From Williamsia faeni (lineage in GTDB: Bacteria; Actinomycetota; Actinomycetes; Mycobacteriales; Mycobacteriaceae), in the NCBI GenBank assembly GCA_003202005.1, contig QJJF01000010.1:62001-126000 (forward strand): DNA of 64,000 nt, written 5' to 3'. Positions 54,894 through 60,725 of this stretch are shown here, in pieces (within the stretch, counting starts at the first letter, position 1; every line of letters begins with the position of its first letter). Below the pieces are notes generated by a model that was given only the letters and a program-made list of their open reading frames with translations, was not told the DNA's origin and made no database searches. Made by a program: the position numbers and the translations under genes.

Positions 54894-55985
54894 ATGCTGG
54901 AGACGGAGCGAAGCGGAGCTCGACCGGAGCAGGCCGTATCGGCACGCGTAGATCTTGCGTTGCTCGGTGTTCGTGGGTCACCGCCAGTGCGCCGATCCGC
55001 CGGCGCCGGTCCCAGCGACGACGGCCACCTGATCATCGATGGCCTCAGTGCTGCGGTCCCACGCAATCCGCTGAGTCCTTATGTCCTGGACGGTGATCGG
55101 GTGTTGTTCGACGGTGATGAGACCGGGCTGGAGGTGTTGGCGATCGACAGACCGGCCTTCTACGACCTGCGCACCGACACGGGAATCGCGTACGACAAGA
55201 TCGCCAAGCTGCACGGCCGCGACGTCTTGGCGACCACGGTGATGCAGACCTGTATCCGCTACGACGAGTCGCAGCGCTGCAGGTTCTGCACAATCGAGGA
55301 GTCCTTGCGGTCCGGCGCCACCGTGGCCGTCAAGAAGCCCGCAGAGCTGGCCGAGGTCGCCGAGGCGGCGGTCCGCCTCGACGGGGTGAAGCAGATGGTG
55401 ATGACGACGGGTACCTCCGCGGCGGCGGACAGGGGCGCAAAACATCTGGCGCGCTGCGTCCGTGCCGTGAAAGCTGCGGTGCCGGATCTGCCCATCCAGG
55501 TCCAGTGTGAACCCCCCGGCAACCTGGCCACGCTCACCGAATTGAAGGAGGCCGGAGCCGATTCCATCGGTATCCACATCGAGTCCCTCGATGATTCCGT
55601 CCGCCGGCGTTGGATGCCCGGCAAGGCGAGTGTCTCCACCGACGAGTACCGGGCGGCCTGGGCGGAAGCGGTACGCGTCTTCGGGCGCAATCAGGTCTCG
55701 ACCTATCTGTTGATCGGACTGGGGGAGGACCCCGACGAATTGGTGTCAGGTACGAGAGAACTCATCGAGATGGGGGTGTATCCCTTTGTGGTGCCGTTCC
55801 GTCCGCATGAGGGATCGCTGGCCGTCGATGTCGATCATGTCGGCGCCCCTCGCAGTGACGTCGTCGAGGACATCACCCGGCGGGTCGCCAAAGAATTGAC
55901 AGCCGCGGGCATGCTCGGCGCCGATCAGAAGGCCGGATGTGCCGCGTGCGGCGCATGCAGTGTTCTGCAGAACGTGGGAGGTTGA
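54894..55985 (+). CDS. MSMEG_0568 family radical SAM protein
   Basis: The 363-aa protein places its cluster cysteines in CIRYDESQRCRFC (Cys120, Cys129, Cys132), an enlarged CX8CX2C instead of the usual CX3CX2C. The TIM-barrel part shows MTTGTSAAADRG, IQVQCEPPG and TYLLIGLGEDPDEL. A C-terminal CAACGAC (Cys349, 352, 355) could bind an auxiliary iron-sulfur cluster. Family members occur only in this cluster type; the reaction is unknown to me. The ATG at 54894 is preferred, because the frame upstream overlaps the first gene. Confidence 0.88.
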   Translation: MLETERSGARPEQAVSARVDLALLGVRGSPPVRRSAGAGPSDDGHLIIDGLSAAVPRNPLSPYVLDGDRVLFDGDETGLEVLAIDRPAFYDLRTDTGIAYDKIAKLHGRDVLATTVMQTCIRYDESQRCRFCTIEESLRSGATVAVKKPAELAEVAEAAVRLDGVKQMVMTTGTSAAADRGAKHLARCVRAVKAAVPDLPIQVQCEPPGNLATLTELKEAGADSIGIHIESLDDSVRRRWMPGKASVSTDEYRAAWAEAVRVFGRNQVSTYLLIGLGEDPDELVSGTRELIEMGVYPFVVPFRPHEGSLAVDVDHVGAPRSDVVEDITRRVAKELTAAGMLGADQKAGCAACGACSVLQNVGG

Positions 55986-55987
55986 TC

Positions 55988-57397
55988 ATGTACGCAGGCA
56001 GCAGAGATCTGGCGATCCTGACCGGCCCGCGCTTGGCCACAACGCATGCCCCGTTCCTTATCCAACCTGTCGGGGGCACAGGCGAACTCGCGCAGTATCG
56101 GGCGCTTCGCCACGAGGCGTTCGTCGTACGGCAAGAGCTGTTTGCCGGATCCGACCACGACGAACTCGACGATGATCCCCGCACCGTGGTGCTCTGTGCG
56201 ACGGCATCCGACGGCACCGTGCTCGGTGGGGTGCGGCTCGCGCCGGCCACCGCCGACGACATCGGATGGTGGACCGGAAGCCGGTTGGTGGTGGCACCGA
56301 CCGAACAGGCCCGAGGGGTCGGTCCGGCGCTGGTGCGGGCGGCGAGCGCACACGCAGAGAGTTCCGGTGTCCTGCGGTTTGATGCCGCCGTACAGCAGCG
56401 GTACCGGTCGATGTTCACCTCGCTGGGGTGGCAGCACACCGGCGACGTCGACGTGGCGGGCGTATCCCACGCCGCGATGCGCTGGCCGATCAACAAGATC
56501 GAACGTCTCGTCACAGCCACCAAGGCGATGCTGGCCGAAGTGCTGGCGCCGCTGGCGGAACAATCGATGGGATTGGGGCCCAGCGGATTCCGTGGTGACG
56601 ACGGCACCCCTGTCCCAGGCAGCGATCTGATCGCAGCCTGCGACGCGATCATCCCATCGATGGTCGAACGTGACCCCGAATGGGCCGGGTGGTGTGCGGT
56701 ACTGGTCAATCTCAACGACCTGTCCGCGATGGGCGCCACCCCGGTCGGTCTACTCGACGCGGTGGGGGCACCCACCCGATCGCAACTGACGAGAATCATT
56801 CGTGGGATGGCCAGAGCCGCTGCAGCCTGGGGTGTTCCGGTCCTCGGCGGTCACACGCAGGCAGGTGTCCCGGCGTCGTTGTCGGTCACCGCGCTCGGCC
56901 GCACGTCCAGGCCGATACCTGCCGGGGGTGGACGCGTCGGGCACGACCTGCGGCTCACCGCCGATCTCGGGGGCAATTGGCGGCCTGGATATGCCGGTCA
57001 GCAATGGGATTCCACAACGACGCGCAGTTCCGAGGACCTGGCGCGGATGGGATCGTATGTGCAGCGGGCAGCACCGGCCGCTGCGAAGGACGTCAGCATG
57101 GCCGGGCTTGTCGGCACCACCGGAATGCTGGCCGAGGCCTGCGGAACCGGTGCGCTCCTCGATATCGACAGTATTCCAAGGCCTTCCGGAGTTGCGATGG
57201 GCGAGTGGGTCACCGCCTTTCCGGGATTCGCCATGATCACGGCAGACGCGCCGGGCCGGGAGGTCCCCGATGCGGGACCGGCAACCGGTGCGGTCTGCGG
57301 ACAACTCATCGAAGGCCGTGGCGTCAGCCTGCGTTGGCCCGACGGCACGATCACACAAGCGGTGCAGGGCACCGTCACAGGATTGGGAAAAGCATGA
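55988..57397 (+). CDS. MSMEG_0567-type GNAT acetyltransferase fused to an Sll0787-type AIR synthase-like domain
   Basis: The 469-aa protein begins at ATG 55988. Residues about 20-165 form a GNAT N-acetyltransferase domain (YRALRHEAFVVRQELFAG; RLVVAPTEQARGVGPALVRA). Residues about 185-465 resemble aminoimidazole ribotide synthase/selenophosphate synthetase ATP-binding folds (DDGTPVPGSDLIAACDAIIP; NLNDLSAMGATPVGLLDAV; GGHTQAG). Both occur as separate genes in cyanobacteria (sll0786 and sll0787), so the fusion indicates consecutive steps. It overlaps the nitrilase gene by 4 nt. Confidence 0.85.
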   Translation: MYAGSRDLAILTGPRLATTHAPFLIQPVGGTGELAQYRALRHEAFVVRQELFAGSDHDELDDDPRTVVLCATASDGTVLGGVRLAPATADDIGWWTGSRLVVAPTEQARGVGPALVRAASAHAESSGVLRFDAAVQQRYRSMFTSLGWQHTGDVDVAGVSHAAMRWPINKIERLVTATKAMLAEVLAPLAEQSMGLGPSGFRGDDGTPVPGSDLIAACDAIIPSMVERDPEWAGWCAVLVNLNDLSAMGATPVGLLDAVGAPTRSQLTRIIRGMARAAAAWGVPVLGGHTQAGVPASLSVTALGRTSRPIPAGGGRVGHDLRLTADLGGNWRPGYAGQQWDSTTTRSSEDLARMGSYVQRAAPAAAKDVSMAGLVGTTGMLAEACGTGALLDIDSIPRPSGVAMGEWVTAFPGFAMITADAPGREVPDAGPATGAVCGQLIEGRGVSLRWPDGTITQAVQGTVTGLGKA

Positions 57398-58287
57398 GCA
57401 CAACAATTTCTGTCGCGTCGGCTCAGTTCGGCCGCGACATGGAACAGGCGTACCGGACGATCGGTGCGCTCATCGAACAGGCGAATGAGCGGGGCAGTGA
57501 CCTGCTTGTTCTCCCAGAGGCGGCGTTGGGCGGCTATCTACCCAGTCTGGGTGGGGGCGACGAGAGTCCGGAGGCACGTCAGCGCAGGCTCGAAAGTCTG
57601 CCACCGGCACTTGAGCTGGGTGGCCCGGAACTGGCCCGGGTCATTGCGATGGCCGGCGACATGACAGTGACGTTGGGCTTCTGTGAGGCCGATGGCGACA
57701 TCCGCTACAACGCCGCCGTCACCCTGTGCGGCGACGGGATCCTCGGATCGTATCGCAAGGTCCATCAACCACTGGGTGAAAACCTTTGCTATTCAGCCGG
57801 TTCGGAGTATCGGACCTTCGAGACGCCGGTCGGTCGGATGGGAATGCAGATCTGCTACGACAAGGCATTCCCGGAGGCTGCCCGGGCGTTGTCGCTCGGC
57901 GGAGCAGAAATCATCGCGTCGATTTCGGCCTGGCCGACGTCGCGGACCAACACCACACCCAACATGGACGACGACCGCTGGAAGCAGCGGTTCGACATCT
58001 ACGACCGGGCCCGCGCGCTGGAGAACCAGTTGATCTGGGTCGCATCGAATCAGGCCGGAACCTTTGGTTCCCTTCGATTCGTGTGCAGCGCGAAGATCGT
58101 TGGTCCCGGTGGTGAGGTACTCGCCGACACCGGCACCGAGGAGGGCCTCGCGACGGCAACACTCGACGTCAAGGAAGCGATGCGAGCAACCCGCGGCGGC
58201 GGTATGTACAACCTGCGGGATCGACGCCCCGAGCTCTACGGCAGTGTCACCGAGCCCAATCGAGTCGAGGAACTGACCTATGCCTGA
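57394..58287 (+). CDS. Sll0784-family nitrilase / carbon-nitrogen hydrolase
   Basis: The 297-aa protein contains the intact nitrilase triad: Glu42 in LVLPEAALGG, Lys122 in SYRKVHQP and Cys154 in MGMQICYDKAFPE. It is the Nit1C-type nitrilase, which in Pseudomonas fluorescens NCIMB 11764 is genetically linked to growth on cyanide. The natural substrate in actinobacteria is unknown. The ATG at 57394 overlaps the preceding stop. The following gene begins 8 nt before its end. Confidence 0.9.
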   Translation: MSTTISVASAQFGRDMEQAYRTIGALIEQANERGSDLLVLPEAALGGYLPSLGGGDESPEARQRRLESLPPALELGGPELARVIAMAGDMTVTLGFCEADGDIRYNAAVTLCGDGILGSYRKVHQPLGENLCYSAGSEYRTFETPVGRMGMQICYDKAFPEAARALSLGGAEIIASISAWPTSRTNTTPNMDDDRWKQRFDIYDRARALENQLIWVASNQAGTFGSLRFVCSAKIVGPGGEVLADTGTEEGLATATLDVKEAMRATRGGGMYNLRDRRPELYGSVTEPNRVEELTYA

Positions 58288-59888: not shown

Positions 59889-60725
59889 ATGGCACCTATT
59901 CGAGTTGCCGCACTGGCAGGCCACTTCGGCAGGGATGTCGAGCGGGCGGTGAGCAAGATCGTCGGGATCATCGAGGCGGCCGCGCGCGACGGCATCGACC
60001 TGTTGGTGTTGCCAGACGCGTCGATCGGTGGCTACATCGGTGACCTGCGATCACCGGACATCGATCACCTGCCGCCCACAGTGGACACCGATGGTCCGGA
60101 ACTGACGAGGATCGCGGAGGCCGCGGGACCGATGACGGTGTGTGTGGGATTCACCGAGGCCTCGGAGGGCAAGCGGTACAACACCGCGGTCTGTCTGTCC
60201 GGTGATGGCATCTTGGGCCTGCACCGCAAAGTCCATCAGCCGGCCGGTGAATCGTTGGCTTACGCAGCGGGTGACACCTTCGCCGCCTTCGACACCCCGG
60301 TGGGCCGGATCGGAATGCTGATCGACTACGACAAGACGTTTCCGGAATCAGCCCGCACGTTGGCGCTCGACGGCGCAAGGATCATCTGTGCTCTGTCGGC
60401 GTGGCCGGCGAGCGTCACCGATCGTGCCTCGCGGCTACCCAACGACCGCCAGTCCCGGCTGTTCGACCTGTACGACGCGGCCCGGGCAGCGGAAAATCAG
60501 GTGGTGCTGGTGTCGTCGAACCAGACCGGCGTGATGGGTAAGTTGCGGTTCCTCGGGCAGGCCAAGGTGGTCGGTCCCGGCGGCGAGGTGCTCGCGAAGA
60601 CATGGGCCAAAGGTGGAATGGCGATGTGCGACATAGACATCGATGCCGAGATCAACCGCGCCCGGACCGTGCTGCATCACCTGGAAGAGCGGCGCATCGA
60701 CGCATACTGGCAGGACAATCCTTGA
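59889..60725 (+). CDS. Nitrilase-fold pseudoenzyme, paralogue of the upstream nitrilase
   Basis: The 278-aa protein has clear full-length similarity to the product at 57394-58287 (ILGLHRKVHQPAGESL; TPVGRIGMLIDYDKTFPESARTLAL; VVGPGGEVLAKTW). However, the catalytic Glu is Asp43 (LVLPDASIGG) and the nucleophilic Cys is Asp146 (LIDYDK instead of ICYDK), while Lys114 is retained. Hydrolysis through a Cys thioester is therefore impossible in the usual way. It may be a non-catalytic partner or have a new activity. It starts 11 nt after the flavoprotein gene and overlaps the glycosyltransferase gene by 4 nt. Confidence 0.85.
   Translation: MAPIRVAALAGHFGRDVERAVSKIVGIIEAAARDGIDLLVLPDASIGGYIGDLRSPDIDHLPPTVDTDGPELTRIAEAAGPMTVCVGFTEASEGKRYNTAVCLSGDGILGLHRKVHQPAGESLAYAAGDTFAAFDTPVGRIGMLIDYDKTFPESARTLALDGARIICALSAWPASVTDRASRLPNDRQSRLFDLYDAARAAENQVVLVSSNQTGVMGKLRFLGQAKVVGPGGEVLAKTWAKGGMAMCDIDIDAEINRARTVLHHLEERRIDAYWQDNP

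Follow-up and report, generated by a model that had tools for sequence, protein, structure and literature searches.

A predicted nitrilase-fold pseudoenzyme with a fixed Cys-to-Asp change in an actinomycete relative of the Nit1C and gpr gene clusters

Described relatives and the cluster of the window

Two described systems resemble the cluster analysed here. The gpr cluster of M. smegmatis comprises eight open reading frames, MSMEG_0565 to MSMEG_0572 (available part of PMC6039565), and six genes of the window match NCBI families named after them. According to the same text, the cluster is GlnR-dependent and induced more than 500-fold in nitrogen-free medium; a higher NADPH/NADP ratio and peroxide resistance are attributed to it, and the single genes behind this phenotype could not be identified. 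MSMEG_0566 is called a putative aliphatic amidase in the available text, where loss of its Cys goes unmentioned, and it is suggested as a possible direct contributor to nitrogen assimilation; the UGA codon that ends MSMEG_0571 has been proposed to encode selenocysteine (PMC6039565). Tables on nitrogen starvation or limitation also list MSMEG_0566 as an aliphatic amidase and give it values of 8.94 and 2.96 (accessible parts of PMC4222082, PMC4617892). A GlnR binding peak lies at MSMEG0572, and MSMEG0571 is counted among the GlnR-regulated hydrolases acting on C-N bonds (excerpt of PMC3662644). The second system, Nit1C (NitBCDEFGH), has radical SAM, GNAT, AIR-synthase-like, flavoprotein and two small hypothetical members with counterparts in the window, a pairing of open reading frames that follows family names (sections of PMC1199592, PMC11049912).

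The window is a stretch of 64,000 nucleotides of Williamsia faeni (contig QJJF01000010.1), and all genes of its cluster lie on the forward strand. The order starts with an MSMEG_0572/Sll0783 family protein (TIGR04044, 54359..54883, 254 bits, cut-off 109.85), an MSMEG_0568 family radical SAM protein (TIGR04043, 54888..55985, 510 bits, cut-off 303.7) and a fusion of GNAT and AIR-synthase-like domains (TIGR04045 and TIGR04050, both above their cut-offs, 55937..57397); the starts of the radical SAM and fusion genes are uncertain. These are followed by NIT_C (57394..58287, PF00795 137 bits), a paralogue with the full triad E42, K122 and C154, and by an MSMEG_0570 family protein (TIGR04042, 58280..58597) whose start overlaps the end of NIT_C. 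An MSMEG_0569 family flavin-dependent oxidoreductase (TIGR04046, 58594..59877), here the flavoprotein, ends 11 bp before NIT_D (59889..60725), the subject of this study. The last gene encodes an MSMEG_0565 family glycosyltransferase (TIGR04047, 60722..61810), with a possible TTG start that overlaps the NIT_D stop codon. Going downstream from NIT_D, the first marker gene is the glycosyltransferase in 44 of 47 regions and in every one of 80 loci (the best 80 of 506; the two sets overlap), and the gene upstream varies between the flavoprotein, the GNAT-AIR fusion, NIT_C and the MSMEG_0570 gene. The order runs as in MSMEG_0572 to 0565 in 11 of 14 Mycolicibacterium/Mycobacterium loci, L145 has the order of the window, and L188 and L192 hold part of the cluster. 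On the gene order of those 11 loci, NIT_D and NIT_C would be the counterparts of MSMEG_0566 and MSMEG_0571, respectively.

A reading of the sequence alone had called the locus a Nit1C-type operon, and this description holds in part. The Nit1C accessory genes (TIGR04042 to TIGR04046 and TIGR04050) are all above their cut-offs in the window, and TIGR04049 (sll0787-family, AIR-like) is below its own, at 172 of 321 bits. The defining nitrilase of TIGR04048 (Nit6803, subfamily 1) is absent. With 41 bits for NIT_C and 42 for NIT_D, both stay far below the cut-off of 502.6, so neither was assigned to the Nit1C nitrilase, and no protein exceeds the cut-off in the genome of the window or in any of 201 family genomes. 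Weaker matches occur in 20 of these 201 genomes. The strongest, of 478 bits, lies in G192, where NIT_D has no match; in seven NIT_D genomes there are matches of 197-253 bits at other positions. Because the Nit6803 nitrilase is missing, the cluster is best classed by its gene families as an actinomycete cluster related to Nit1C but with another set of nitrilases.

Control by GlnR is reported for the M. smegmatis cluster. In the window, a search upstream of 54359 with a loose pattern gave no match to a GlnR box, and the window as a whole contained fewer matches than most shuffled versions. With respect to the proposed selenocysteine codon, NIT_C ends in TGA in 52 and in TAG in four of 56 regions, and in TGA in 74 of 74 cases among the best 80 loci (three of them read through partial matches). 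The TAG-ending cases speak against a universal selenocysteine codon at the end of NIT_C (58285-58287 in the window). The prevalence of TGA at this site needs no special reason, since NIT_D stop codons are also mostly TGA (45 of 47 regions and 74 of the best 80 loci).

The active site of NIT_D

NIT_D is a 278-amino acid protein of the CN hydrolase (nitrilase) superfamily by fold (PF00795, 124 bits, cut-off 23.2). Its structure, predicted as a single chain with AlphaFold2, is a nitrilase fold (pLDDT 91.5), and the best matches in the PDB are nitrilase-superfamily amidases, headed in Foldseek by 6ypa (E 5e-24), which is titled as a C146A amidase variant (of PH0642) with bound glutaramide. D146 of NIT_D aligns with the Cys of Pyrococcus PH0642 (1j31) and with the Ala of the variants 7ovg and 6ypa. 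Both reading frames are intact, and the residues named in the sequence-only reading were borne out, with their codons, for NIT_D (D43, GAC, 60015..60017; K114, 60228..60230; D146, GAC, 60324..60326) and for NIT_C (E42, GAG; K122; C154, TGC). Together with E121 (60249..60251), these NIT_D residues occupy the sites of E42, K122, E129 and C154 of NIT_C, that is, of the catalytic Glu, the catalytic Lys, the second Glu and the nucleophilic Cys (DKED in NIT_D, EKEC in NIT_C).

Conservation of these positions was examined in several sets of sequences, and since the best 80 loci, the 60 larger regions and the 57 tree rows share some of their members, their counts are not additive. In the 57 NIT_D tree rows, taken from the class of the window, K114, E121 and D146 are invariant; position 43 is Asp in 47, Gly in five, His in four and Gln in one, and Glu in none. 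Aligned parts of 240 residues or fewer were dropped from this set, L103 and L104 served as the outgroup, and L078, a relic fragment, was left out. All 63 aligned NIT_C rows read EKEC. Among 30 family loci including that of the window, the combination D43-K114-D146 was found in 29 and H43-K114-D146 in one (L031), a reading taken at positions 43, 114, 120 and 146 that has no bearing on E121. The 60 larger regions contain NIT_D in 47, one of which is the relic L078. A scan of 84,980 species' genomes yielded 506 relatives, and NIT_D is encoded in every one of the best 80 loci, with Asp (78) or His (two) at position 43 and K-E-D at the other sites in all; their titles name Rhodococcus, Nocardia, Gordonia, Williamsia, Mycobacterium, Rhodococcoides, Mycolicibacterium, Millisia and one Kitasatospora. 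Three loci (L135, L142 and L167) were sorted under a cyanobacterium when the trees were built, apparently because of clashing names, although they are titled Rhodococcus. NIT_C reads EKEC in 73 of the 76 matches in these loci, the other three being incomplete (L123 has a short piece of 33 residues, L183 one of 35, and the copy in L127 is partial, with 179).

For comparison, we aligned other CN hydrolases from the genome of the window and 12 relatives. All 29 that are not NIT_D keep the Glu, Lys and Cys, four of them lack the second Glu, and NIT_D alone reads DKED. This control was drawn from 32 PF00795 loci among the best matches, which do not cover all of the 75 found; 30 of the 32 were aligned by the profile (L230 and L242 were missed); many of the 29 proteins are mutual orthologues and seven are of the NIT_C type.

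Across 57 NIT_D, 63 NIT_C and five outside copies, 28 columns are invariant, K114 and E121 included. Leu191 is found in 57 of 57 NIT_D rows, with Arg in NIT_C and His, Arg or Gln in the five outside copies, and on the sampling used it is a second change private to NIT_D. Gln188 stands at the site of a Trp in NIT_C; the five outside copies also have Gln, and this residue is therefore no NIT_D novelty. L262 and E267 are further columns conserved differently between NIT_D and NIT_C. C85, invariant in an alignment of 25 NIT_D rows, was considered as a shifted nucleophile and is not favoured, because five triad-bearing outside copies carry Cys at the same site.

The loss of the catalytic Cys and Glu noticed in the window is thus a fixed feature of the lineage (Cys and E43 each in 0 of 57 rows). 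The sequence-only reading had also asked whether the Asp pair is conserved in homologues, and only half of it is: D146 is fixed across relatives, including Gordonia, Rhodococcus and Mycolicibacterium loci, but position 43 varies among Asp, Gly, His and Gln, with at least five changes on a 29-row tree. As judged from these alignments, the fixed change is that of Cys to Asp, and the Glu site is relaxed, its Glu having merely been lost.

Evolutionary history, distribution and partners

NIT_D forms a single clade, with support of 100/96 and 100/98 in careful trees of thinned rows and 98 in a quick tree. EKEC is retained in all 15 copies read from other parts of the phylum. The six that have GNAT-AIR and flavoprotein genes next to them fall with NIT_C (99/94), and the nine that have no cluster neighbours fall with NIT_D (99/94 in a 27-row set). 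These nine triad-bearing copies (L203, L205, L209, L217, L219-L222 and L226) are termed stand-alone in the sense of no cluster gene within about 1.5 kb; wider regions were read for three outside copies (L212, L214 and L216, the last starting at a contig end). Since all 15 outside copies, including those that group with NIT_D, are EKEC, the loss of Cys in NIT_D is derived. Loss on the NIT_D stem would be the simplest history, because Cys is found in all flanking groups and in all other CN hydrolases aligned, with the root of the tree left free by the data. The triad-bearing sister group should be useful for inferring the ancestral function.

Within five genus-level groups, pairwise dN/dS ranges from 0.049 to 0.080 in NIT_D and from 0.040 to 0.095 in NIT_C, and purifying selection on NIT_D is comparable to that on NIT_C. 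The view that the change was selected rather than decayed is upheld, and the change is ancient, given the low dN/dS, conservation in 80 of 80 loci and 57 of 57 rows, and the single clade. The same counts rule out a sequencing error or a strain-specific mutation. A decaying copy or artefact would account for the triad loss itself and has a parallel in one relic elsewhere (a fragment of about 150 residues in L078 of G193), but it is refuted by this conservation and by a dN/dS of 0.05-0.08, and we give it practically no weight. Enzymes of the CN hydrolase superfamily have a Glu-Lys-Cys triad; NIT_D has D43-K114-D146 in its place, and the Cys is missing from all 57 tree rows. A protein that has lost its catalytic residues and whose gene is kept under selection is a pseudoenzyme, and NIT_D is predicted to be one on the basis of its fixed loss of Cys and Glu and its retained selection.

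At E values up to 1e-30, relatives of NIT_D or NIT_C were found in 49 of 201 family, 50 of 394 class and six of 296 phylum genomes, samples that overlap. In the class sample NIT_D is found in 33 genomes and NIT_C only in 16, a count that leaves out G498 with its two weak 33-34% matches; ten of the 16 were read at the sequence level. A second copy accompanies NIT_D in 32 of the 33 NIT_D genomes, and 48 of the 49 matching family genomes have at least two matches, the remaining one being G193. NIT_D without a second copy was found only in G227, plus the relic fragment in G193. The G227 gene (L084:8390-9178) is an intact lone NIT_D of 61% identity, with no cluster genes in the 17 kb read. NIT_D is also present in four Rhodococcus plasmid records, three labelled 'carbon-nitrogen hydrolase family protein' and one without annotation.

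The composition of the cluster varies. In G010 (L079/L080) the main locus carries NIT_D but no NIT_C, and a second-type NIT_C, a TIGR04044 copy and a flavoprotein are encoded elsewhere in the genome; the cluster can therefore be split. This locus and L126, L128 and L129 are main loci of Williamsia/Rhodococcoides that lack both NIT_C and the flavoprotein. A reduced cluster of TIGR04044, radical SAM, GNAT-AIR, NIT_C and glycosyltransferase genes, with no flavoprotein, MSMEG_0570 gene or NIT_D nearby, was seen in L087, L088, L092, L094, L105, L116 and L117, all from one family of the class (f20). In some Williamsia an apparently broken NIT_C lies next to an intact NIT_D (L122:7677-8213, L127:1308-1844 and L123:8552-8650). 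Only the C-terminal 179 residues of NIT_C align in Williamsia sp. 1138, and G092 has another NIT_C-like copy on a separate contig; in Williamsia sp. 1135 the end of NIT_C is in another frame.

To look for partners of NIT_D, we computed partial correlations between protein distances at 37 loci. The values were 0.36 for the flavoprotein, 0.27 for the radical SAM protein, 0.22 for the glycosyltransferase, 0.19 for the GNAT-AIR fusion, and 0.01 for both NIT_C and the TIGR04044 protein; subsampling gave 0.00 for NIT_C (5-95% range -0.11 to 0.15). These correlations are suggestive of a link between NIT_D and the flavoprotein/radical SAM/glycosyltransferase side, and gene neighbourhood or shared transfer may give the same pattern. 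Using presence lists compiled by hand from genome tables, we found a flavoprotein above its cut-off in 31 of 33 NIT_D genomes versus two of 16 NIT_C-only genomes; a flavoprotein is also retained in G236 and G413, which lack NIT_D. This co-occurrence was set aside as strong evidence: its Fisher p of 1.9e-8 is inflated by kinship, a radical SAM tree of 35 rows shows three changes in the presence of NIT_D and two in that of the flavoprotein, and a test on the three independent pairs in the tree is not significant.

Candidate functions and comparison with known systems

The canonical mechanism of the superfamily needs a Cys that forms a thioester and a Glu base. Ordinary hydrolysis by NIT_D is very unlikely because both are gone, and the lineage-wide fixed Cys-to-Asp change suggests that the protein very probably does something other than C-N hydrolysis. 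We consider it about an even bet (probability roughly 0.5) that NIT_D has a converted pocket which binds a metabolite of the pathway instead of hydrolysing one. Its active site would have been remodelled on the clade stem, where the nucleophilic Cys gave way to a fixed Asp and the general-base Glu was freed from constraint (Asp, Gly, His or Gln), with the Lys, the second Glu and many pocket motifs staying invariant. Without the Cys, the thioester route to nitrile or amide hydrolysis would be closed, and the Lys-Asp-Glu pocket would more probably accommodate a metabolite from the nitrogen-starvation pathway that is polar or cationic. NIT_D could then act in binding, sensing or delivery, serving the flavoprotein/radical SAM/glycosyltransferase side more than NIT_C. 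Binding without the Cys would have a precedent in 6ypa, the C146A amidase with glutaramide. Some observations count against such a pocket: the mirror-tree signal may partly reflect gene neighbourhood or shared transfer, the link to the flavoprotein rests on very few evolutionary events, the NIT_D of G227 has neither cluster genes around it nor a second copy, and the invariant Lys, Glu and Asp would fit a new catalytic activity as well.

That last possibility, an enzyme using non-thioester chemistry (e.g. isomerisation, elimination, decarboxylation or transfer) on a cluster metabolite with K114, D146 and E121 as acid-base or nucleophilic groups, is one we hold as a serious but minority option. 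The replacement is always Asp, which is chemically competent, while the Glu site drifts; Leu191 is also fixed and private to NIT_D (57/57), and purifying selection is strong. However, Gly, His and Gln at the Glu site amount to no common substitute, and we know of no member of the nitrilase fold with an Asp nucleophile. Rather unlikely as well is the catalytically dead subunit of the sequence-only reading, taken here as one that regulates or stabilises NIT_C in a hetero-oligomer. Superfamily proteins usually oligomerise, and nearly every NIT_D genome of the class sample (32 of 33) has a second copy, but the proposal found little support: the NIT_D distances carry no NIT_C-specific signal (0.01), the main locus of G010 has NIT_D without NIT_C and a NIT_C of another type elsewhere, and 16 class-sample genomes have NIT_C without NIT_D. 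We infer from the 28 invariant columns that a mere scaffold would not need K114 and E121 to be invariant. For such a subunit the sequence-only reading had suggested substrate binding, which would be plausible, or spiral filaments; nitrilases that form spirals have a longer C-terminal tail, and NIT_D is only 278 residues long. Pilin-type proteins contain internal Lys-Asp isopeptide bonds formed with the help of a Glu; K114, D146 and E121 might make up a new centre, either for non-hydrolytic catalysis or for a spontaneous, Glu-assisted bond of this kind between the Lys and the Asp, which we regard as unlikely. An Asp-based C-N hydrolase, with D146 as the nucleophile and E121 as the base, is far less probable. 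It would fit the retained Lys and second Glu, the three plasmid records named as carbon-nitrogen hydrolases and the papers that name MSMEG_0566 an aliphatic amidase. Such names are taken to rest on homology, no assay being mentioned in the available text of these papers; moreover, the general base is missing from a site that is free to vary, and 29 of 29 other aligned CN hydrolases from the same and related genomes keep the Cys. A literature search of titles and abstracts turned up neither a natural centre in the nitrilase fold that lacks Cys and is built on Asp nor a paper on an inactive or Cys-less nitrilase paralogue.

The amidase or hydrolase label of NIT_D and MSMEG_0566 is doubtful in light of these sequences. 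The cluster is widespread, nitrogen starvation induces it strongly in M. smegmatis, and no reaction for it was found in the parts of the literature available. A pocket that is changed but fixed, as we prefer to read NIT_D, would offer a handle for finding the metabolite of the pathway.

Compared with the known systems, the gene order of the window differs from that of the gpr cluster of M. smegmatis. Nit1C is defined by its subfamily-1 (Nit6803) nitrilase (available sections of PMC1199592 and PMC11049912), and the window has two other CN-hydrolase paralogues instead, one of them without the triad. In fold and pocket framework NIT_D is like PH0642, the 3ivz nitrilase and N-carbamoylputrescine amidase (5h8i), which are among its closest relatives by sequence and structure. 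These three proteins, which we take to have the full Glu-Lys-Cys triad, carry a Cys at the site of the nucleophile, whereas NIT_D has Asp (or Gly, His or Gln)-Lys-Asp.
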